From an uncultured Roseburia sp. (GTDB lineage: Bacteria; Bacillota; Clostridia; Lachnospirales; Lachnospiraceae), in the NCBI GenBank assembly GCA_947573605.1, contig CANPGM010000029.1:1-45327 (forward strand): a stretch of DNA of 45,327 bases. Reading direction: 5' to 3'. Positions 2,683 to 41,792 of this stretch are shown in pieces. Both the position numbers and the translations under genes were made by a program. Position 1 is the first letter of the stretch. Each line of letters opens with the position of its first letter. The notes under the pieces are model-generated. The model had not been told where the DNA came from. It searched no databases and saw only the letters and a program-made list of their open reading frames with translations.

Positions 2683-2708
2683 GCCTCGGATGCATAGTCA
2701 GGAGAAAA

Positions 2709-2732
2709 GGCCGTAATGGAATGTGAGGATAT
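2709..2732 (+). promoter_or_regulatory. queA leader with decayed copy of the GAATGAGAGG element
   Basis: GCCG is present but its partner arm is missing. The tail from 2719 (GAATGTGAGGATATATGG) matches the alr leader tail at 29203 in 17 of 18 positions. GTGAGG serves as Shine-Dalgarno for the ATG at 2733. Confidence 0.45.
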
Positions 2733-3758
2733 ATGGATGTAAAAGATTTTTATTATGAATTGCCGCAGGAGCTGATTGCGCAGGACCCGCTCTCAGACCG
2801 TGCGGCCTCCCGTCTGATGGTACTGGATAAAAAAACAGGAGAAACGCAGCACAGAAGCTTTCGGGATATCGTTACTTATTTAAAGCCGGGAGATTGTCTG
2901 GTACTGAACAATACAAAGGTTATTCCGGCCAGACTTTTCGGAAGAAAGGAAGATACGGGAGCGAATGTTGAAATTCTGCTTCTGAAGAGAAAAGAGGAGC
3001 GGATCTGGGAGACGCTTGTGAAACCCGGTAAAAAATGCCGGCCGGGCGCAAGATTTGTTTTCGGAAACGGGATACTGACCGGAGAAGTAATCGAGGTGGT
3101 GGAAGAGGGCAATCGGCTGATTCGTTTTACTTATCAGGGAATTTTTGAGGAGATTTTGGACCGGCTGGGACAGATGCCGCTGCCGCCTTATATTACGCAT
3201 CGACTGGAGGATAAAAACCGTTATCAGACCGTTTATGCAAAATATGACGGTTCCGCCGCCGCCCCGACGGCAGGCCTTCATTTTACGCCGGAGCTGCTTT
3301 TGCAGATAAAGGAAGCTGGTGTCGATATTGCGGAAGTAACGCTTCATGTGGGACTTGGGACCTTTCGTCCGGTGAAAGAGACAGATGTCTTAAAGCACCA
3401 TATGCATTCGGAATTTTATCGGATTGAGCAGGAGGCTGCCGATAAAATCAACCGTGCGAAAAAAGAAGGCCGTCGTGTGATTGCAGTCGGGACGACCAGT
3501 ACAAGAACGCTGGAATCGGCTGCGGATGAAAACGGATATTTAACCGCAAAAAGCGGATGGACGGAGATTTTTATTTATCCGGGTTATCAATTTAAAGTGA
3601 TAGACGCTTTGATTACCAATTTTCATCTGCCGGAGTCTACACTTGTAATGCTTGTTTCCGCGCTTGCCGGAAGGGAGCATGTGCTTTCCGCGTACGAGGA
3701 AGCCGTACGGGAGAAATATCGCTTTTTCAGCTTTGGAGACGCGATGTTTTTGGTGTAA
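2733..3758 (+). CDS. queA: S-adenosylmethionine:tRNA ribosyltransferase-isomerase
   Basis: QueA transfers and isomerises the ribosyl group of S-adenosylmethionine onto 7-aminomethyl-7-deazaguanine in tRNA, giving epoxyqueuosine in the queuosine pathway. The 341-residue product starts with DFxYELPxELIAQ and has [11 protein letters not shown], the APTAGLHFT segment, [20 protein letters not shown] and the C-terminal TNFHLPxSTLxMLVSA, all typical of QueA. Length is as expected. No other queuosine gene is in the window. It is separated from pheT by a terminator and ends at a strong terminator facing thrS. Confidence 0.97.
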
Positions 3759-3845: not shown

Positions 3846-5606
3846 TTATTCTCGGATACCTTCCTCATGAAGAATTTCCATTAGTCGTTCTATTGGCATA
3901 CTTCCTAAATCGCCGCCGTCTCTGCTGCGGACAGAAACACTGTCAGCGTCAACTTCCTTCTCGCCAATGATAAGCATATAAGGTACTTTTTCCAGTTGTG
4001 CAGTTCTTATTTTGTAGCCTATTTTTTCAGCTCTTCCATCCACTTCGCAACGTAATCCCTCTTTTTTCAGGGTCATTTCAATTTGTTTTGCATATTCAGT
4101 GTATTTTTCCGAAATGGATAAAATTTTTATCTGTACCGGTGAAAGCCATAACGGAAATTTACCGGCAAAATGTTCAATCAAAATACCTATGAACCGCTCA
4201 ATAGAACCAAATACAACCCTGTGTATCATAATGGGACGATGTTTGGTTCCATCTTCTCCGATATACTCTGCCTCAAAACGCTGCGGCAACTGAAAATCCA
4301 ATTGAATTGTCCCGCATTGCCATGTTCTTCCGATAGAGTCTTCCAGGTGGAAATCAATTTTCGGCCCATAAAACGCCCCGTCTCCATCGTTTACAACATA
4401 GGGCAGGTTCAGATCTTCCAGCGCATTTTTCAAACCGTCTGTCGCCGTTTTCCATTCTTCGTCGCTTCCGATGGAATTTTCCGGTCTTGTGGATAACTCC
4501 ACATGATATTTAAATCCAAAATTTGAATATACTTCGTCTATCAGGCGGGCGACTCCCTTTATCTCGTCCTGTATCTGTTCCGGCGTCATAAAAATGTGGG
4601 CGTCGTCCTGCGTGCAGCAGCGGACGCGCATAAGACCATGCAAAGTACCTGATTTTTCGTTTCTGTGTATCAGTCCCAGCTCACTGATGCGCATAGGAAA
4701 ATCACGATAAGAGTGCGGTTCCATTTTATATACAAGCATACCGCCCGGACAACTCATCGGTTTTACGGCAAAATCTGCCCCGTCAATTGACGTCGTATAC
4801 ATTTTATCCATATAATGCTCCCAATGGCCGGATGTTTCCCAAAGCTGCCGGTTGAGCATAATCGGAGTGGATATTTCGACATATCCCTCTCGTATGTGCA
4901 GTTTTCTCCAATAGTCAATCAGTAAATTTTTTAAAATCAATCCTTTTGGAAGAAAAAAGGGAAATCCCGGACCTTCTTCAAATAGCGCAAATAAGCCTAA
5001 TTCTTTTCCTAATTTTCTGTGATCCCTCTTTTTGGCTTCTTCGAGCCGGTTCAGGTATTCCTCCAACATAGCCTCGCTTGGAAAGGACGTGCCGTAAATT
5101 CTGGTGAGCATTTTGTTTTTTTCGTCACCGCGCCAGTATGCGCCCGCAACGGACAATAGCTTAAATGCCTTAATTACACTGGTGTATGCCACATGCGGTC
5201 CGGCACACATCTCTAAATATTCGCCCTGCTGATAAAAACTTATTTCCTCATTTTCCGGTAATTCATGTAACAGTTCGATTTTATAGGTTTCTTTTCTTTG
5301 TTCCATTAACTGTATTGCTTTTTTCCGGTCCGTCGTAAAATGTTTTAACTGCAAATTTTCCTGTACGATTTTTTTCATCTCTGCTTCTATTTCGGCAAAG
5401 TTTTCCTCCGAGAAGTGAAAATCAAAGTCGAAATCATAATAAAAACCGTCTGCAATAGACGGACCTATCGCGCATTTGACCGATGGATACAGTCTTTTTA
5501 CTGCCTGTGCCAGGATATGTGCGGACGTATGCCGGAATGCATTTTTTCCCAATTCTTCGTCGAAGCCAGTCTCCCTGATGGAACCGTCTTTCATTTTAAC
5601 TTTCAT
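3846..5606 (-). CDS. thrS: Threonyl-tRNA synthetase lacking the TGS domain
   Basis: It charges tRNA-Thr with threonine in the cytoplasm. The 586-residue product is about 50-60 residues shorter than common bacterial ThrRS: after about 20 residues it goes straight into the editing domain (H26/H30 of HTSAH, C134/H138 of CAGPH), so the N-terminal TGS domain is absent. The class II catalytic core is present (motif 2 region RVRCCTQDDAHIF, motif 3 HRVVFGSIERFIGILIEH), followed by the anticodon-binding domain. The usual NCPGH reads SCPGG and the usual RGFTQDD reads RCCTQDD; the Cys and both His zinc-ligand positions look preserved. It is transcribed alone behind a T-box leader, as expected for a starvation-induced ThrRS. 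A second, TGS-bearing ThrRS elsewhere in the genome is possible but not visible here. Confidence 0.95.
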   Translation of the reverse strand: MKVKMKDGSIRETGFDEELGKNAFRHTSAHILAQAVKRLYPSVKCAIGPSIADGFYYDFDFDFHFSEENFAEIEAEMKKIVQENLQLKHFTTDRKKAIQLMEQRKETYKIELLHELPENEEISFYQQGEYLEMCAGPHVAYTSVIKAFKLLSVAGAYWRGDEKNKMLTRIYGTSFPSEAMLEEYLNRLEEAKKRDHRKLGKELGLFALFEEGPGFPFFLPKGLILKNLLIDYWRKLHIREGYVEISTPIMLNRQLWETSGHWEHYMDKMYTTSIDGADFAVKPMSCPGGMLVYKMEPHSYRDFPMRISELGLIHRNEKSGTLHGLMRVRCCTQDDAHIFMTPEQIQDEIKGVARLIDEVYSNFGFKYHVELSTRPENSIGSDEEWKTATDGLKNALEDLNLPYVVNDGDGAFYGPKIDFHLEDSIGRTWQCGTIQLDFQLPQRFEAEYIGEDGTKHRPIMIHRVVFGSIERFIGILIEHFAGKFPLWLSPVQIKILSISEKYTEYAKQIEMTLKKEGLRCEVDGRAEKIGYKIRTAQLEKVPYMLIIGEKEVDADSVSVRSRDGGDLGSMPIERLMEILHEEGIRE

Positions 5607-5650: not shown

Positions 5651-5912
5651 AAAAGCACCCTTAAAGATACTTATTATGTATCTCTAAGGGTGCTTATTGC
5701 ACGGTTCCACCTTAATTTTTTACTTCAGATTCTATCAAATCCTAACCTTTAACGCAGGTGTACGATAATACTTACTCTACTTTCAGTATTACAGCTGGGG
5801 AATGGTTTTCACATATCATCCGCATAAACATCTTCCACCAAATGATGCTCTCTCTGTCTGCAATTAATATGCTACTTGTTTCCGTCATCGCTTTTTCTTA
5901 TGTTGACTTGTT
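5651..5912 (-). promoter_or_regulatory. T-box leader (tRNA-Thr sensing) with terminator
   Basis: Read on the minus strand, the leader has a Stem I region with the AGAGAGAG segment, an ACT triplet (plus 5785-5787) followed by GAAAGTAGAGTAAG at the usual specifier position, the antiterminator sequence GGTGGAACCGTGC (plus 5699-5711), and then a terminator stem AAGCACCC...GGGTGCTTTT (plus 5651-5695). ACT is a threonine codon, matching thrS downstream. In this family uncharged tRNA pairs with the T-box bulge and favours antitermination. Boundaries are approximate. Confidence 0.93.
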
Positions 5913-5954: not shown

Positions 5955-5977
5955 ACCGGTTTTTTCATTTTTCCGGT
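5955..5977 (-). terminator. Weak candidate terminator after the MFS gene
   Basis: An ACCGG/CCGGT stem with a 13-nt loop holding the MFS stop codon is followed on the minus strand by ATTTTG. It is only 5 bp long and may not act alone. Confidence 0.3.
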
Positions 5978-7149
5978 CTTTTATTTGTTCTGTCCAGGAT
6001 AAAAAGCATGACTAATAAGATAATCGGGAATAGAAGACCTACGCTCATTCCTGCGCGAATATTGTTTCCTGCCTTTTGCGTTATGCGTCCAACAATGCCG
6101 GGTCCGATGCTGCCTCCTAAATCGCCTGCCATAGCGAGCAATGCAAACATAGCGGTGCCGCCTGTGGGAAATTTTTTGGAGGAAATACTAATTGTTCCGG
6201 GCCACATAATTCCAACGGAAAACCCGCATACGATACAGCCGATCAGCCCTGATAATGGATGGGACGTAAACGACGCCAGAAGATAACATACCACACACAG
6301 GATTCCGGAACCTGTCATAAATCTCATCAAATTCAGTCTTTCACCGTATTTTCCATAGATTACACGACTAATTCCCATTGTTGCCGCAAACAGACAGGGA
6401 CCCGCCAAATCTCCTGTCGTTTTTGACAATCCCAACGCCGCCTCTGCGTACGCCGACGCCCACTGTGCCATTGCAAGTTCCGATGCGCCGGAGCAAATCA
6501 TCAGACAAATGGCCAGCCAGAACAAGGGTTTTTGAAACAGTGTTCTGATTCCCATTCCGCCCCCTTTTTCTAACAAATGTTCCATCGGACATGTTGCAAA
6601 ATTGTAGATATTTACGGCAGGAATCAGCGCCCATAATACAGCAAGCCATTTCCAGCTGTTCATTCCGAATACCATAAAAAATAAGGTTGAAATCAATATC
6701 GTTCCTACCGACCCCCAGCAATAAAAGGAATGGAGGAGACTCATGGTCGATTCCTTATTTTGAAACGGACATGCCTCTATAACAGGACTGCAGAGCACCT
6801 CAATTAATCCGCTTCCGGTTGCATATGTGATTACACTGCATAAGATTCCCGTAAACGGATTCGGTAAAATTTCCGGGAGAAATGCCAGACCGATCAGTCC
6901 GGCTGCGGCGAATACCTCAGAGGCTACAATACATACGCGATATCCAATCCTGTCCACGAACTTTGCGCAAAACAAATCTACCAAAATCTGTGTAAAGAAA
7001 AAGCAGGTAGATATCAATGCAATATTCCCGAGAGATATTTGGTAGTCATTATGAAATTTTAAAAATAACAGCGGTGCAAAATTAGCTGCTATTGCCTGTG
7101 TAATAAATCCTAAATAACAGGCTGTTTTTGTTTTTCGATAGTTTGGCAT
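5965..7149 (-). CDS. Major facilitator superfamily transporter
   Basis: A predicted polytopic inner-membrane carrier of about 394 residues with roughly twelve hydrophobic segments, a loop after TM2 of the MFS type (CAKFVDRIGYR, resembling the GxxxDRxGRR motif) and a central cytoplasmic loop near residue 195. The fold suggests proton-coupled uptake or efflux of a small solute; the substrate cannot be read from sequence. I prefer the ATG at 7149 (MPNYRKTKTA) because GAGAGG lies 8 nt upstream; a GTG at 7158 is also open. It is divergent from an AraC-family regulator 121 bp away, a layout common for sugar or metabolite transporters controlled by their neighbour. Confidence 0.85.
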   Translation of the reverse strand: MPNYRKTKTACYLGFITQAIAANFAPLLFLKFHNDYQISLGNIALISTCFFFTQILVDLFCAKFVDRIGYRVCIVASEVFAAAGLIGLAFLPEILPNPFTGILCSVITYATGSGLIEVLCSPVIEACPFQNKESTMSLLHSFYCWGSVGTILISTLFFMVFGMNSWKWLAVLWALIPAVNIYNFATCPMEHLLEKGGGMGIRTLFQKPLFWLAICLMICSGASELAMAQWASAYAEAALGLSKTTGDLAGPCLFAATMGISRVIYGKYGERLNLMRFMTGSGILCVVCYLLASFTSHPLSGLIGCIVCGFSVGIMWPGTISISSKKFPTGGTAMFALLAMAGDLGGSIGPGIVGRITQKAGNNIRAGMSVGLLFPIILLVMLFILDRTNKRPEK

Positions 7150-7188
7150 CAGAAACACCTCTCATTTTGTTTTTTTGCATTATATATT

Positions 7189-21950: not shown

Positions 21951-23378
21951 ATGAAAGAAGTAATCGTGAATCAGAAGACAAATCTGCTGCAGCTGGAAGA
22001 GCATTTTTACCAGCTTGCGGACGTAAAGGAACCGAATGTGTTCCATAATCTCTTTCCCTACCATGAGATTCCCAAAATTGCATTTAACGACCGGATTGTT
22101 CCGCATAATATGCCGGAGCAGATCTGGATTACCGATACGACGTTTCGGGACGGACAGCAGTCGAGAGAACCCTATACGACGGAACAGATCGTGACGATCT
22201 ATGATTATCTGCATAAGTTAGGAGGGCCAAACGGACTGGTACGCCAGAGCGAATTCTTTTTATACAGCAAAAAAGACCGCGATGCTGTTTATAAATGTCT
22301 TGAAAGAGGTTATCAGTTTCCGGAAGTGACAAGCTGGATTCGGGCAAGTAAACAGGATTTTATGCTGGTTAAGGATATCGGGCTGCGGGAAACCGGTATT
22401 TTGGTAAGCTGTTCGGATTATCATATCTTCTATAAAATGAAGATGACGCGGCGGGAGGTTATGAACCTCTATTTAAGTGTAATCCGAGAGTGTCTGGAAA
22501 CCGGAATCAGTCCGAGATGTCATCTGGAAGACATAACAAGATCTGATATCTATGGATTTGTTATTCCGTTTTGCCTGGAGCTAATGAAGCTGATGGAAGA
22601 ATATCAGATACCGATTAAAATACGCGCCTGCGATACAATGGGATACGGCGTAAACTTTCCGGGAGCCGTTATACCGAGAAGCGTTCCGGGTATTATCTAT
22701 GGTTTGACGACACATGCGGGAGTGCCTTCCGAGCTGATTGAGTGGCACGGACATAATGACTTTTACCGGGCGGTTAACAATTCTACGACTGCATGGCTTT
22801 ACGGAGCGAGCGGGGTCAACTGTTCGCTGTTCGGAATCGGGGAGCGTACCGGAAATACGCCGCTGGAAGCGATGGTATTTGAATACGCCCAGCTGAAAGG
22901 GACGCTCGACGGTATGGATACTACGGTTATTACTGAACTTGCAGAGTATTTTGAAAAAGAACTGGGCTATGTTCAGCCTCCTCAAACGCCGTTTGTAGGC
23001 AGTAACTTTAACGTGACAAAGGCGGGAATCCATGCAGACGGTCTATTGAAAAATGAGGAAATATATAATATATTCGATACGGAGCGGTTTTTAAACCGTC
23101 CGCCGTTAGTGGCGGTTTCCAACACTTCCGGGCTTGCGGGAATTGCGCACTGGCTTCATACATATTACCGGCTTCCGAAGGAGGAAGGCCTTGATAAAAG
23201 CAGTGAGCTTGTAAAGCAAATCAAGCAATGGGTGGATAAGCAGTATGAGGACGGACGGGTAACGGTAATTACGGACGCTGAGCTTGACGCGGTGACAAAA
23301 AAATGCGCGAAGGCGCTTTCTGTATCGATTCCCGGAATTACGATGTGTGACACAGCCGTAAAAGAACGGCATATCTGA
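21951..23378 (+). CDS. Probable Re-type citrate synthase
   Basis: A 475-residue HMGL-like/isopropylmalate-synthase superfamily enzyme. The TIM-barrel start ITDTTFRDGQQSREPYT (about residue 60) and the metal-binding EWHGHND (about 263) are clear. The N-terminal extension and overall sequence fit the group that contains the Clostridium kluyveri Re-citrate synthase, which makes citrate from oxaloacetate and acetyl-CoA with opposite stereospecificity to ordinary citrate synthase. The next gene is icd, which supports citrate over homocitrate or isopropylmalate as product; no leu or nif genes are nearby. I start at 21951 because GAAGGAG is well placed; the in-frame ATG at 21915 lacks one. Isopropylmalate or homocitrate synthase remain alternatives. 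Confidence 0.82.
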   Translation: MKEVIVNQKTNLLQLEEHFYQLADVKEPNVFHNLFPYHEIPKIAFNDRIVPHNMPEQIWITDTTFRDGQQSREPYTTEQIVTIYDYLHKLGGPNGLVRQSEFFLYSKKDRDAVYKCLERGYQFPEVTSWIRASKQDFMLVKDIGLRETGILVSCSDYHIFYKMKMTRREVMNLYLSVIRECLETGISPRCHLEDITRSDIYGFVIPFCLELMKLMEEYQIPIKIRACDTMGYGVNFPGAVIPRSVPGIIYGLTTHAGVPSELIEWHGHNDFYRAVNNSTTAWLYGASGVNCSLFGIGERTGNTPLEAMVFEYAQLKGTLDGMDTTVITELAEYFEKELGYVQPPQTPFVGSNFNVTKAGIHADGLLKNEEIYNIFDTERFLNRPPLVAVSNTSGLAGIAHWLHTYYRLPKEEGLDKSSELVKQIKQWVDKQYEDGRVTVITDAELDAVTKKCAKALSVSIPGITMCDTAVKERHI

Positions 23379-23397
23379 AAGAAAATCGCTTTCAACT

Positions 23398-23469
23398 TGG
23401 AATTTGTGCCGACGCACAAAGTTCCTCCTTATTTAAGAAGCCGCTAAAGCGGCAGAATGAGAGGTAAAA
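23398..23469 (+). promoter_or_regulatory. icd leader: tandem hairpins and GAATGAGAGG element
   Basis: A GGAA-TTTGTGC/GCACAAA-GTTCC hairpin with a CGAC loop (23398-23425) is followed by GCCGCT-AA-AGCGGC (23440-23453), then AGAATGAGAGG and the start codon 16 nt after the stem. In this copy the ATG inside the element is out of frame with icd. Confidence 0.6.
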
Positions 23470-24684
23470 ATGGATAAAATTAAGATGACAACCCCGATTG
23501 TAGAAATGGACGGAGACGAAATGACCAGGATTCTCTGGCAGATGATTAAGGACGAGCTGCTTACGCCGTTTCTGGAACTGAATACGGAATATTATGACCT
23601 GGGGCTTGCACACAGAAACGAAACAAACGACCAGGTGACCGTCGATTCTGCGAATGCGACAAAAAAATACGGTGTGGCGGTGAAATGTGCTACGATTACG
23701 CCGAATGCTGCGAGAATGACGGAATACGATTTAAAGGAAATGTGGAAAAGTCCGAACGGGACGATTCGCGCGATGCTGGATGGTACGGTGTTCCGTGCGC
23801 CGATTATTGTAAAAGGTATCGAACCCAATGTAAAAACGTGGAGAAAACCGATTACGATTGCAAGACATGCTTACGGCGACGTCTATAAAGCAACTGAAAT
23901 GAAAGTTCCGGGGCCGGGCAGATGCGAACTGGTTTATACCGGGGAAGACGGAACAGAGGTAAGAGAACTGATTCATGAATTTGCAGGCCCAGGCGTCGTA
24001 CAGGGACAGCATAACCTCTGCGGATCGATCGAAAGCTTTGCAAGAAGCTGTTTTCACTATGCGCTGGATACGAAGCAGGATTTATGGTTTGCGACGAAAG
24101 ATACAATTTCCAAAAAGTATGATCATACGTTTAAGGATATTTTTCAGGAAATTTTCGATATGGAATTTAAAGATAAATTTGAAGCCGCAGGCATTACGTA
24201 TTTTTATACGCTGATTGACGATGCGGTAGCGCGCGTGATGAAGTCGGAGGGAGGCTATATCTGGGCTTGTAAAAATTATGACGGCGACGTAATGAGCGAT
24301 ATGGTATCAAGCGCATTCGGTTCGCTTGCAATGATGACTTCCGTTCTGGTATCCCCCGATGGACATTATGAGTACGAAGCGGCTCACGGAACCGTACAGC
24401 GTCATTATTATAAGCATTTAAAGGGAGAGGAAACATCAACCAACTCCGTGGCTACGATTTTTGCATGGAGCGGCGCGCTTCGTAAGAGAGGAGAACTTGA
24501 CGAAAACGAAGCGCTGAAAACATTTGCGGATTTACTGGAGCAGGCATGTATTAAGACGATTGAAGAAGGACAAATGACAAAAGACCTTGCGCTTATGACC
24601 ACGATTCAGAATCCGGTCGTATTAAGCAGCGAAGGCTTTATCCGGGCAATCCGCGCCAACCTTGAGGAGCTTTTGGGATCATGA
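23470..24684 (+). CDS. icd: NADP-dependent isocitrate dehydrogenase
   Basis: It oxidatively decarboxylates isocitrate to 2-oxoglutarate, yielding NADPH. The 404-residue product matches the eukaryote-like subfamily (short form) of homodimeric enzymes: [13 protein letters not shown] at the start, the substrate loop [16 protein letters not shown], the metal-binding [29 protein letters not shown], and [11 protein letters not shown]. Together with the upstream citrate synthase it forms the oxidative arm to glutamate; aconitase is not in the window. The leader element between the two genes suggests separate translational control or mRNA processing. The stop overlaps the next start. Confidence 0.96.
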
Positions 24685-26758: not shown

Positions 26759-26787
26759 GCCGCTGAAGCGGCGGAATGAGAGGAATT
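26759..26787 (+). promoter_or_regulatory. rex leader: hairpin and GAATGAGAGG element
   Basis: GCCGCT-GA-AGCGGC (26759-26772) is followed by GGAATGAGAGG and the start codon 15 nt after the stem. The element's ATG (26776) is in frame with rex and would add MRGI. Confidence 0.6.
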
Positions 26788-27432
26788 ATGGAAGAAAAAG
26801 AGATTTCTCAGGCGGTAATCCGAAGAATGCCGAGGTATTACCGATATCTGGGCGAGCTGATAGAAGACGGCGTGGAACGAATTTCATCCAACGATTTAAG
26901 CGGCAGAATGAATGTTACCGCATCTCAGATCCGTCAGGATTTGAACAATTTCGGCGGTTTCGGACAGCAGGGTTACGGCTATAACGTAAAATATCTATAT
27001 GAAGAAATCGGTAAAATACTCGGCTTGAACCAACAGCATAATATCATTGTAATCGGTGCGGGAAATTTGGGACAGGCGCTTGCGAATTACGTAAAGTTTG
27101 AAAAACTTGGTTTTGTCATTACCGCCTTGTTTGACGTAAATCCGGCGATGGAAGGGATTACCGTACGTGGGATAAAGATTCATATGTTAAATGAGTTGGA
27201 GGATTACTGCGGAAAAAATCGTGTAGACATTGCGGCGCTTACAATGCCTAAGGCAAAGGCGGACGCAATTGCAAACCGACTTGTAAGTCTTGGTATTCAT
27301 GCCATTTGGAATTTTGCACATGTCGATCTGGATTTGATTGATAAGGATGTTGTCGTTGAAAGTGTGCATCTTTCCGACAGTTTGATGCAATTATCCTATA
27401 ATATTGAAAAGAATAAAAAAAAGAACGGGTAG
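26788..27432 (+). CDS. rex: Redox-sensing transcriptional repressor Rex
   Basis: A homodimeric repressor that reads the NADH/NAD+ ratio and controls fermentation and respiration genes. The 214-residue product has an N-terminal winged helix (SQAVIRRMPRYYRYL; SNDLSGRMNVTASQIRQDLNNFGGFGQQGYGY), a Rossmann domain with GAGNLGQAL (about 89-97), and a C-terminal domain-swapped helix (SVHLSDSLMQLSYNIE). I start at 26788 (MEEKEISQAVIRR), the usual Rex N-terminus, not the in-frame ATG at 26776. A Rex-type site overlaps the promoter region, so autoregulation is likely. nnr follows. Confidence 0.97.
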   Translation: MEEKEISQAVIRRMPRYYRYLGELIEDGVERISSNDLSGRMNVTASQIRQDLNNFGGFGQQGYGYNVKYLYEEIGKILGLNQQHNIIVIGAGNLGQALANYVKFEKLGFVITALFDVNPAMEGITVRGIKIHMLNELEDYCGKNRVDIAALTMPKAKADAIANRLVSLGIHAIWNFAHVDLDLIDKDVVVESVHLSDSLMQLSYNIEKNKKKNG

Positions 27433-29169: not shown

Positions 29170-29216
29170 TGCTTCCGAAACGGAAGAGCCGTTAAAGCGG
29201 CAGAATGAGAGGATAT
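29170..29216 (+). promoter_or_regulatory. alr leader: tandem hairpins and GAATGAGAGG element
   Basis: CTTCCG-AAA-CGGAAG (29172-29186) is followed after 1 nt by GCCGTT-AA-AGCGGC (29188-29201), AGAATGAGAGG, and the start codon 15 nt after the stem. The element's ATG (29205) is in frame and would add MRGY. A CCGGA/TCCGG hairpin lies further upstream. Confidence 0.6.
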
Positions 29217-30386
29217 ATGGAGAAACACAGCAGGGTTTGCGCCGAAATTGATCTGGACGCCATTCTATATAATATGGAATCTATGAGAAAAAAAATTCCG
29301 GAACATACAAAAATCATGGCCGTAGTAAAAACTGACGGGTACGGGCACGGCGCTGTCCCGATTGCGAAAGTGCTTGAAGAACTGCCATATTTATACGGCT
29401 ATGCGGTTGCAACCGTGGAGGAAGGGCTGATTTTAAGAAAAAACGGAATCAAAAAGCCGATTCTGGTATTGGGATATGTATTTCCCGAGCATTATCAAAG
29501 GGTAATAACGGAAGAGATTGATCCTACCGTTTTTACGTATGAAATGGCAAAGGAGTTGTCTGAAATTTCGGAGTCGGAAGGAAAAAGCTGTCGGATTCAT
29601 TTCGCAGTCGATACCGGAATGAGCCGAATCGGGTATCAGGTCACAAGAGAAGCGGCAGAGGAAATGGCACGGATTTCCCGACTGCCTCATATCATAGTAG
29701 AAGGGATTTTTACACATTTTGCAAGGGCGGATGAAGCGGATAAAACGCCTTCTTATCTTCAGATGGAACGCTTTTTTAAAATGATAGAGATGCTGGAGGA
29801 ACGAGACGTTTCTATACCGTTTAAACACTGTGCGAACAGCGCCGGAATTGCAGAGCTTCCGGAAGCAGCGCTTGATCTGGTGCGGGCGGGCGTTACGCTT
29901 TACGGCATGTGGCCTTCCGATGAGGTTGACCGGTCGCATATGGATTTAAAACCTGCGTTATCTTTAAAATCCCATGTGGCTTTTGTAAAACGGCTTCCCG
30001 CAGGCCGTGAAATCAGCTATGGCGGTACGTATACGACAACGGAGGCGCGGATAATCGCGACAATACCGGTTGGTTACGGCGACGGCTACTGCCGCGGACT
30101 GTCGAGTCGGGGACGCGTACTGATTCACGGGAAATCGGCTCCGATTCGAGGAAGAATCTGCATGGATCAGTTTATGGTGGACGTAACGGACATAGAAAAT
30201 GTAAAAATCGGAGACGAAGTAATTCTGATTGGCAGGGACGGGGCGGAAGAGATTACAATGGAAGAGGTCGGAAATATTTCGGGCAGGTTTCATTATGAAT
30301 TTGCATGTGCGCTCGGAAAACGGGTTCCCCGTATTTTTTTTAAAAACGGAAAAGAAATTTGTACGAAAGATTATTTTTCGGAATAA
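29217..30386 (+). CDS. alr: Alanine racemase
   Basis: A PLP enzyme that interconverts L- and D-alanine and supplies D-alanine for peptidoglycan. The 389-residue product has the PLP lysine in VVKTDGYGHG (K38; most family members read KADGYGHG), the catalytic tyrosine region ISYGGTYTT (Y268), and the C-terminal beta domain with RGRICMDQFMVDVT. Start 29217 (MEKHSRVCAEIDLDAI) fits the family and the GAGAGG site. It precedes mazF, the usual order in Firmicutes. Confidence 0.96.
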   Translation: MEKHSRVCAEIDLDAILYNMESMRKKIPEHTKIMAVVKTDGYGHGAVPIAKVLEELPYLYGYAVATVEEGLILRKNGIKKPILVLGYVFPEHYQRVITEEIDPTVFTYEMAKELSEISESEGKSCRIHFAVDTGMSRIGYQVTREAAEEMARISRLPHIIVEGIFTHFARADEADKTPSYLQMERFFKMIEMLEERDVSIPFKHCANSAGIAELPEAALDLVRAGVTLYGMWPSDEVDRSHMDLKPALSLKSHVAFVKRLPAGREISYGGTYTTTEARIIATIPVGYGDGYCRGLSSRGRVLIHGKSAPIRGRICMDQFMVDVTDIENVKIGDEVILIGRDGAEEITMEEVGNISGRFHYEFACALGKRVPRIFFKNGKEICTKDYFSE

Positions 30387-40923: not shown

Positions 40924-40952
40924 GCCGTTCATACGGCGGAATGAGAGGGAAT
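40924..40952 (+). promoter_or_regulatory. folD leader: hairpin and GAATGAGAGG element
   Basis: GCCGT-TCAT-ACGGC (40924-40937) is followed by GGAATGAGAGG and the start codon 15 nt after the stem. Here both sides of the fifth pair differ from icd and rex (U-A in place of C-G), keeping the stem. The element's ATG (40941) is in frame and would add MRGN. Confidence 0.6.
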
Positions 40953-41792
40953 ATGGCGGAGATTATTGACGGAAAGAAAATTTCACAGGAAATAAAAGAG
41001 GAATTAAAAGAGCGTGTTTTGCGCCTGAAGGAACAGGGAAAAGAAGCTGCATTAGCGGTCATTCAGGTAGGCGACGACCCGGCTTCCTGCGTATATGTAA
41101 ATAATAAAAAGAAAGCGTGTCAGTATATCGGGATTACGTCTCTTTCGTATGAACTGCCGGAAGATACGACGGAAGAAGATTTGCTTGCGTTGATCGATAA
41201 GCTGAATAAAGATACGCGGGTAAACGGAATTTTAGTACAGCTTCCCGTACCGGAGCAAATCGACGCGGACAAAGTGATAAGAGCAATTTCTCCGCAAAAA
41301 GACGTCGACGGATTTCATCCCGAAAATGTAGGAAGGCTTGTAATCGGCGAGGAGGGTTTTGTCTCTTGTACGCCTGCGGGAATTATTGAGCTGCTTAAGC
41401 GAAGCGGTATTGAGATTGCAGGAAAACATTGTGTAGTTGTTGGCCGTAGCAATATTGTCGGAAAACCGATGGCGCTTCTGATGCTTCGTGAAAATGCGAC
41501 CGTAACCGTTGCCCATTCCAAAACGCAGCATTTAAAAGAGCTGTGCAAAGAAGCGGATATTTTAATTGTGGCTATAGGGAAACCGCAGTTTATCACCGCG
41601 GAATATATTAAAGAGGGAGCTGTTGTAATTGATGTCGGAATTCACCGGAACGAAAACAATAAGCTTTGCGGCGACGTAAAATATGAGGAAGTTTCAAAGC
41701 TTGCTTCTGCAATTACTCCGGTGCCGGGCGGCGTCGGACCAATGACAATCGCAATGCTAATGCATAATTGCGTTGCGTCCATGCAGATGTAA
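40953..41792 (+). CDS. folD: Methylene-tetrahydrofolate dehydrogenase/cyclohydrolase
   Basis: A bifunctional enzyme linking 10-formyl- and 5,10-methylene-tetrahydrofolate with NAD(P). The 279-residue product starts MAEIIDGKKISQEIKEE, has the catalytic YVxxKKKAC region (YVNNKKKACQYIGI, about residues 50-63), GILVQLPVP, the dinucleotide-binding GRSNIVGKPMALLM, and the C-terminal PGGVGPMTIAML. It continues the pathway begun by Fhs, the gene before it. Confidence 0.97.
   Translation: MAEIIDGKKISQEIKEELKERVLRLKEQGKEAALAVIQVGDDPASCVYVNNKKKACQYIGITSLSYELPEDTTEEDLLALIDKLNKDTRVNGILVQLPVPEQIDADKVIRAISPQKDVDGFHPENVGRLVIGEEGFVSCTPAGIIELLKRSGIEIAGKHCVVVGRSNIVGKPMALLMLRENATVTVAHSKTQHLKELCKEADILIVAIGKPQFITAEYIKEGAVVIDVGIHRNENNKLCGDVKYEEVSKLASAITPVPGGVGPMTIAMLMHNCVASMQM

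Follow-up and report, generated by a model that had tools for sequence, protein, structure and literature searches.

Five unrelated genes on one contig of a Roseburia genome are preceded by the same short hairpin, which is followed by nearly the same leader and then by the start codon. Two readings of this arrangement had been offered from the sequence: an RNA element that controls housekeeping genes, or a mobile repeat that carries its own ribosome-binding site. The question was which of the two describes the motif. The stretch analysed here (the window) is 45,327 nt long and corresponds to contig C29 of the host genome (Roseburia sp., 3.08 Mb in 71 contigs).

Copies of the motif in the window

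The genes downstream of the five copies were identified as PheT, Icd, Rex, Alr and FolD with NCBIfam. Direct reading of the sequence located a hairpin and leader before pheT, icd, rex, alr and folD exactly where they had been placed, and the fifth stem pair was as described, C-G in icd and rex, U.G in alr and pheT, and U-A in folD. The distance from stem to start codon, given as 15-16 nt in the original prediction, was 15 nt in every copy except that of icd, where it was 16 nt.

The icd copy is of full length, composed of a TTGAAA-type hairpin, a second hairpin, the GCCGC hairpin, RGAATGAGAGG and the start codon, all on the plus strand. In the order of transcription it reads HP1 (GGTTGAAAG...CTTTCAACC), HP2 (GGAATTTGTGC...GCACAAAGTTCC), CCTCCTTAT, HP3, leader and start. 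Two of its hairpins lie upstream of the part described earlier. HP1 (TGAAAG-AAAATCG-CTTTCA, 23376..23394) was recognized from the sequence, its fold and the alignment with the other class A copies described below, while HP2 (GGAATTTGTGCCGACGCACAAAGTTCC, 23399..23425) was recognized from its fold and from 11 host-genome copies with at most three mismatches, with 0 for the reversed control. HP3 (GCCGC-TAAA-GCGGC, 23440..23453) was found by sequence and covariance model, and the leader read from the sequence behind it (AGAATGAGAGG, 23454..23464) contains the Shine-Dalgarno of the element (GAGG), 5 nt before the ATG at 23470.

The other copies, also on the plus strand, are short and consist of HP3 and the leader. 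Sequence and covariance model together placed them before rex (26759..26783, with HP3 at 26759-26772, GGAATGAGAGG at 26773-26783 and ATG at 26788), alr (29188..29212, with HP3 at 29188-29201, AGAATGAGAGG at 29202-29212 and ATG at 29217) and folD (40924..40948, with HP3 at 40924-40937, GGAATGAGAGG at 40938-40948 and ATG at 40953). A variant short copy stands before pheT, where HP3 (GCCGT-TTAAAAA-GCGGC, 203-219) is followed by AGAATGGAGG (220-229) and ATG at 235, with 25.9 bits in the covariance model. One weak and possibly decayed copy was revealed before queA on the plus strand (2703..2735, GAATGTGAGG at 2719-2728, ATG at 2733; 18.2 bits, E 0.0046).

Several other features were observed in the window. 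Extra GC-rich hairpins (e.g. GGGACGAAAGTCCC) occupy positions 100-222, upstream of the pheT short copy. AAATGAGAGG occurs at 7158-7167 on the minus strand, ahead of the minus-strand ORF 5965-7158, and has no hairpin. When the spacer fits, the ATG within GAATGAGAGG (or GAATGGAGG) at 40941 and 223 shares the reading frame of the true start, so that a simple list of ORFs begins there and adds a few residues. A search pattern with a fixed 6-nt loop returned three matches and was abandoned, the loop being mostly 4 nt. At the gathering score no Rfam family matched the copies in the window; the sole match there was a T-box leader (5683-5897, minus strand, 112 bits), ahead of the minus-strand ORF 3846-5606.

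Abundance and placement in the host genome

Inside the window the 10-mer with at most one mismatch gave 11 matches against 7.3 expected, which was not significant. In the whole host genome, GGCNGAATGAGAGG was found exactly at 68 sites, compared with 1 for the reversed control, and with at most one mismatch at 114 sites, compared with 2. The pattern GAATGAGAGGN{3,7}ATG gave 74 matches (73 sites) and none in the control. GGC immediately preceded the leader in 65 of these 73 sites, which means that the hairpin arm and the leader occur together, and a stem of at least 5 bp ending at GGC was present at 53 of the 68 exact sites, compared with 117 of 2000 random GGC sites.

The placement of the exact sites is strict. 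An ORF (at least 60 aa, or running off the stretch) followed 67 of the 68, and the last one, at locus L028, precedes another repeat hairpin instead. The leader was separated from the start codon by 4 nt in 49 sites and by 5 nt in 15. All 68 had the same orientation as the downstream gene, and a check for copies inside genes or on the wrong strand found none. The original prediction had noted that all copies are on the plus strand; this holds inside the window, because the genes concerned are on that strand, and does not hold genome-wide, where 39 exact sites are forward and 29 reverse, tracking the genes. Among 96 sites that were read, no separate non-coding complement was seen that could be an antisense sRNA.

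Exact matching covers a part of the copies. Relaxed forms of the leader, among them GAAATGAGG and GAACGGGAGG, also occurred before ORFs in the 445 kb of host sequence that was scanned. The 371 predicted ORFs of this 445 kb included 44 near-start hairpins above the score limit, of which 19 ended 15-16 nt before the start. A covariance model, anchored on GGC and used for counting only, gave 25 matches at E < 0.01 in the same 445 kb, and at E <= 1, in a search of six genomes with 150 candidates scored, at least 145 matches in the host genome, at least 151 in genome G107 and at least 148 in G173. From the rate in the 445 kb, the host genome is estimated to hold 150-200 copies, before 5-7% of its genes.

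Full units and short copies

The full unit is about 60-95 nt long. Its 5' end is HP1, a hairpin of the form G-N-TTGAAA...TTTCAA-N'-C, and its 3' end comprises the GC-rich HP3, a linker and the start codon; HP2 (...TTTGTGC...GCACAAA...) is optional. The linker is RGAATGAGAGG in the host genome and several others, and RGAYGGGAGC in another.

About 66 nt upstream of the icd leader were shared with 8 other exact sites of the host genome, and the nine sites together form class A. Near-identical class A copies stand before unrelated genes and have a sharp 5' border. With a profile made from the nine sites, 16 of the 68 exact sites (the nine included) reached at least 10 bits, compared with 0 of 345 control leaders. 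Adding a second profile, of the class found in G107, raised this to 19 of 68, compared with 2 of 345. The remaining 49 sites had no HP1 or HP2 remnant at 10 bits or more with either profile, thus the majority of copies are short forms. Short copies may be decayed units that kept the needed ribosome-binding site alone, or they may be a smaller form able to spread on its own.

When the icd region was used as a BLAST query, four other loci of the host genome and loci in G282, G300, G274 and G296 were obtained, among weaker ones. G274 had, among others, two copies 93 bp apart. Two further elements were observed in the host genome. One is another repeat at L028 and L131, composed of GTTTGAAAG...CTTTCAAAC (or close) and then ATTCAGGGCAGTTCACAGG, directly behind Shine-Dalgarno-like sequences; the other is a TPP riboswitch (L137, 10236-10342, plus strand).

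Empty and shared sites at orthologous genes

Orthologous loci in congeners were mostly empty. In the host genome the mreB stop and the mreC start are 108 nt apart; in congeners, 10 of 10 of which lacked the element, this distance was 8-19 nt. It was likewise absent at ireB in 9 of 9 congener genomes and at tlyA in 8 of 8. For ireB, genome G306 has GGTATAAGGGCGTGACAAATATGCAG, where the host genome has GGGGTATAAGG, then TTGAAAG...GAGAGGAAAA, then ATGCAG. Part of the native sequence between Shine-Dalgarno and ATG is missing here, so the insertion was not a clean cut, and no target-site duplication was recognized. Short copies gave a similar picture: all six congeneric rex loci examined carry a plain Shine-Dalgarno and no element, and the element of a miaB-like gene was absent in most genomes examined.

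The leader was found before icd in none of 28 readable congeneric loci, and by eye in none of 79 loci with upstream sequence among 80 loci from named organisms. The upstream gene, similar to isopropylmalate/homocitrate synthase, is 94 nt from icd here (window 23379-23470), compared with 641-696 nt in those congeners where it was found. Thus icd does not offer a clean empty site, and its neighbourhood has been rearranged; something between the two genes was lost, either along with the arrival of the repeat or separately.

A few sites are shared. L041 is shared with G260, the relaxed form at L131 with G274, and the relaxed form before the miaB-like gene with G306, while one further site was present in both G308 and G310. 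Some copies are therefore old or selected. In the reverse direction, five element-bearing genes of congeners with an orthologue in the host sequence were examined, and a related leader was found in two and none in three; in a sixth comparison (L154) the match lies inside the gene in both genomes.

Distribution among Lachnospiraceae genomes

Among the 40 genomes of the genus, exact sites numbered 68 in the host genome, 23 in G274 and 0-4 in each of the other 38. Exact sites were present in 44 of 250 genomes of the family, and the reversed control in 22, counted by eye. The richest were G107 (74), G173 (45), G161 (16), G003 (14), G022 (8) and G037 (5); the others had 0-3, with single sites there being near chance. 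An ORF followed the site in 15 of 16 sites examined in G107, 16 of 16 in G173, 3 of 4 in G161, 7 of 7 in G003, 4 of 4 in G274 and 24 of 24 in other congeners. In motif-poor family genomes this was the case for 14 of 25, so these are partly chance matches.

A viral, phage or plasmid source was also considered. The leader pattern occurred in nine viral contigs, none with a convincing arrangement of hairpin, leader and start. The HP1 26-mer had 0 matches. A TD-2-like query (see below) had no match in phages or plasmids, and its HP2 pattern had 0 in viral contigs. These few patterns and the one query thus gave no convincing copy from a virus, phage or plasmid.

Upstream Shine-Dalgarno sites, tandem arrays and covariation

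A second Shine-Dalgarno was observed at the 5' side of the units. GGAG or GAGG occurred 3-10 nt before the TTG of the unit in 25 of 37 isolated full units, compared with 5 of 185 control windows further upstream. The 37 were those of 99 units that were isolated and sense, had a TTGAAA core and had HP3 within 90 nt, though two G107 rows among them (the second row of L449, and L457) look antisense. It follows that the unit sits where a start codon is expected and brings a new ribosome-binding site.

Units were also found in tandem, with arrays of period 94 nt (4.1 copies), 67 nt (3.6 copies) and 67 nt (2.3 copies). G107 and the sister genome G317 carry different repeats before the start of one orthologous gene, between flanks that are 83-87% identical. 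The units of these two genomes use other HP3 stems (GCGCGC, GCCCGC and GCGTGC) and the other linker, RGAYGGGAGC, often several in a row. Rows of several units precede, for example, an nrdR-like gene (L394) and, in G274, a flavodoxin-like gene (L485), both named from reading the sequence. Related leader repeats were observed at L505-L531 in G253, G300, G312 and G317, with HP2 stems CAAGTTTG/CAAACTTG and GTGAATTTG/CAAATTCAC and, in several loci, GGAG-type Shine-Dalgarno sites near start codons.

Covariation was analysed in 87 of the 99 units, which had been found partly by their stems, a choice that favours pairing. The HP1 pair beside TTG was Watson-Crick in 78 of 86 units, compared with at most 60 in 2000 shuffles, with AT in 60, GC in 13, TA in 3 and CG in 2. 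Position 6 of HP1 was paired in 68 of 75, compared with at most 55 in shuffles. No covariation signal was seen at pair -2, with 72 of 86 paired and a mean of 70.3 after shuffling, and the AAA core adjoining TTG was nearly invariant. A GC-rich hairpin, with many different stems, ended 12-23 nt before the TTG in 46 of 86 units, compared with 10 of 86 for a window placed more distantly upstream. In the GGC-anchored stem alignment there was little covariation (83.1% paired, 82.0% after shuffling), since one arm is fixed by the search. As to whether the two arms vary independently, which would have spoken against a paired stem, they covary across subfamilies and do so barely in the GGC-anchored alignment.

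Four copies were folded. In the predicted fold of L015 (-40.3 kcal/mol, z -5.45) the old Shine-Dalgarno pairs with the CCTCC of the unit. This pairing encloses HP1 and HP2 in a single domain that does not include HP3 and the new Shine-Dalgarno. A copy from G107 (L221/L249) folded much like it (z -5.00). In the L394 unit and the icd copy the old Shine-Dalgarno region was not paired with the unit. A switch, operated by pairing with either the old or the new Shine-Dalgarno, may be kept as an idea from these models.

Comparison with known repeats and RNAs

In behaviour, the mycobacterial interspersed repetitive units (MIRU) are the closest known kind. MIRU often occur in tandem at gene junctions, have the same orientation as the downstream gene and obey a DTGA target rule. 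The Lachnospiraceae units resemble them in their tandem arrangement (here with periods 94 and 67) next to start codons in gene-sense orientation, and in the possible small ORF and stop/start overlap (TTGA in these units). Passages of a review (PMC12548453) that refer to Supply et al. (1997) describe MIRU as short repeats, said to be mobile and to enter start codons while hardly affecting the gene. An ORF inside the MIRU is described there as coupled to the gene, with a spacing of -4. Insertion at the start codon and absence in relatives are matched here by mreC, ireB, tlyA and the upstream Shine-Dalgarno. Only some Lachnospiraceae units stay open into the gene. The likeness is one of behaviour. 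The Lachnospiraceae units differ in carrying covarying hairpins and their own Shine-Dalgarno in front of the gene, and they occur in other bacteria.

A similar plan of three hairpins is found in TD-2 RNA (RF03162), a Treponema denticola RNA that reportedly came from a candidate-RNA paper of 2017. Full-length matches to it had 52.3 bits in G312 (cut-off 48.7), 48.2 in G317 and 44.7 at locus L485 of G274. Of 30 genomes, one (G312) passed the gathering cut-off, and in the host genome there was no match at E <= 0.05 among 94 candidates scored. Rfam lists TD-2 as an sRNA and, unlike the units described here, its matches can lie either antisense to the gene, as at L507, or sense, as at L508. The resemblance is thus a lead and not membership.

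REP/BIME palindromes, which go with a RAYT transposase, are likewise intergenic hairpin repeats with many copies per genome. The Lachnospiraceae units differ from them in having one direction, in standing at start codons and in the lack of a Y1 match in the unit-rich G107 and G317. The enterobacterial RU are not known to have a tie to the junction of Shine-Dalgarno and start codon or to import a ribosome-binding site. They are similar to the present units in being short mobile sequences across many intergenic regions. The paper on RU (PMC2759123) speaks of small mobile sequences in multiple intergenic regions, and its title says that they carry open reading frames. No description of the Lachnospiraceae repeats was found in the open-licence papers searched.

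Function and origin of the repeat

As an element controlling housekeeping genes, the motif would be a conserved cis-regulatory RNA whose RGAATGAGAGG is recognized by a trans-acting protein or sRNA. The linker is in fact conserved strictly, beyond what a Shine-Dalgarno needs. The target genes make such a regulon very improbable. Pfam analysis of 40 downstream proteins (30 from the host, 10 from G107) gave no common theme, with a range from MreC, IreB, FtsJ/S4 (TlyA-like), CDP-alcohol transferase, IPP transferase and shikimate kinase to Sua5, glycosidases and ABC transporters, and two host proteins without a Pfam match. The gene sets also mostly differ between genomes. No orthologue-like pair was found between the 68 element genes of the host and those examined from G274 (16), G107 (33), G173 (19), G003 (9) and G161 (6), three weaker matches being all that was obtained; one orthologue-like pair was found between G003 and G107. 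Most orthologues are without the element, so this half of the original prediction is not supported. Another reading is a benefit for the single gene. The hairpin, lying just outside the 30S footprint, would keep the Shine-Dalgarno free, and the leader would act as an insulator, enhancer or mRNA stabiliser, spread or kept for better expression. The fixed distance from stem to start, the conservation of GGCRGAATGAGAGG even in copies without an HP1 or HP2 remnant, the maintenance of the stem by compensating changes and the few sites shared by several species are all consistent with it. Near-identical upstream parts of about 66 nt before unrelated genes, tandem arrays, presence and absence at orthologues and the patchy abundance (two congeners with 68 and 23 sites, 38 others with 0-4) are the pattern that a repeat produces as it spreads, and such a benefit is rather unlikely as the explanation of the motif. 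It could have been acquired by host genes later, after the spread.

Translational coupling of the MIRU type was weighed at about the same rather low probability. Here the old Shine-Dalgarno would start a small ORF at the TTG of the unit, and terminating ribosomes would be passed to the gene. TTG stands at Shine-Dalgarno spacing in the same 25 of 37 isolated units, the stop codon of the upstream gene falls in the TTGA of the unit before tlyA, and the frame of several G317 units continues into that of the gene. However, TAG replaces TTG in the G107 array at L253, with both arms changed, and in 52 of 79 units the TTG frame reaches a stop ahead of the following start; the lengths of the 79 modulo 3 are distributed 32:23:24. 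These 79 were taken from the 99 units, and the frame-1 control is trivial because TTGA itself holds a stop. Some 66-nt units of G317 (L392, L469, L475 and L476) were observed to have a TTG frame that runs on into the gene without a stop; the protein would then gain the N-terminal extension LKIDIFNLxDLYAR... As for the mover, REP-like palindromes could be moved by a Y1 transposase of the IS200/IS605 type that recognizes hairpins in single-stranded DNA. Hairpin ends, a single orientation relative to a short target-like sequence and the lack of a recognized target-site duplication fit this, and PF01797 matches were present in the unit-bearing G274, G173 and G003, with a short one (59-aa frame) in the host genome. 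Against it, PF01797 matched neither of the unit-rich genomes G107 and G317 (both drafts) nor G161, and was present in the motif-poor G275 and G292. It occurred in 7 of the 15 genomes searched, among which this search found no mover, and a Y1 origin is improbable.

A repeat that brings its own ribosome-binding site, the other half of the original prediction, agrees much better with the data. As an insertion-derived repeat it is well supported by the number of copies, the empty sites and the upstream Shine-Dalgarno; its movement is inferred. The motif is probably the 3'-terminal part of an interspersed repeat, one of a superfamily of such short repeats in Lachnospiraceae that are located at translation start sites and bring a replacement ribosome-binding site. 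The units are in sense orientation, just before start codons and in tandem, and a native-looking Shine-Dalgarno lies 5' of most isolated ones. A unit would have been inserted between the Shine-Dalgarno of a gene and its start codon, and the old Shine-Dalgarno would thereby be cut off, facing the TTG of the unit; some copies would also allow it to pair with the unit. The gene would then be translated from the Shine-Dalgarno of the unit, which HP3 may keep free of upstream structure and at a fixed spacing. In this case the insertion would cost little, which might explain the survival of copies at starts.

The wider form of this proposal is held tentatively, at somewhat below even chances. According to it, the superfamily would be selfish and targeted to the gap between Shine-Dalgarno and start, would replace the ribosome-binding site, and would stack by re-insertion behind its own Shine-Dalgarno. 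The mover would recognize translation starts, possibly at the RNA level, and in some Lachnospiraceae roughly 5-7% of genes would have had their 5' leaders rewritten. The mover could be sought by comparing unit-rich with unit-poor sister species. The units could also serve as ready-made ribosome-binding-site parts, and the variable tandem repeats could be used for strain typing. If the reading as an inserted repeat is right, MIRU-like insertion at start codons would have a second home outside mycobacteria, and hundreds of bacterial ribosome-binding sites would have been imported by a repeat instead of evolving in place. The reading of leaders, gene starts and "conserved" 5' hairpins would then change in Lachnospiraceae, a major gut family.
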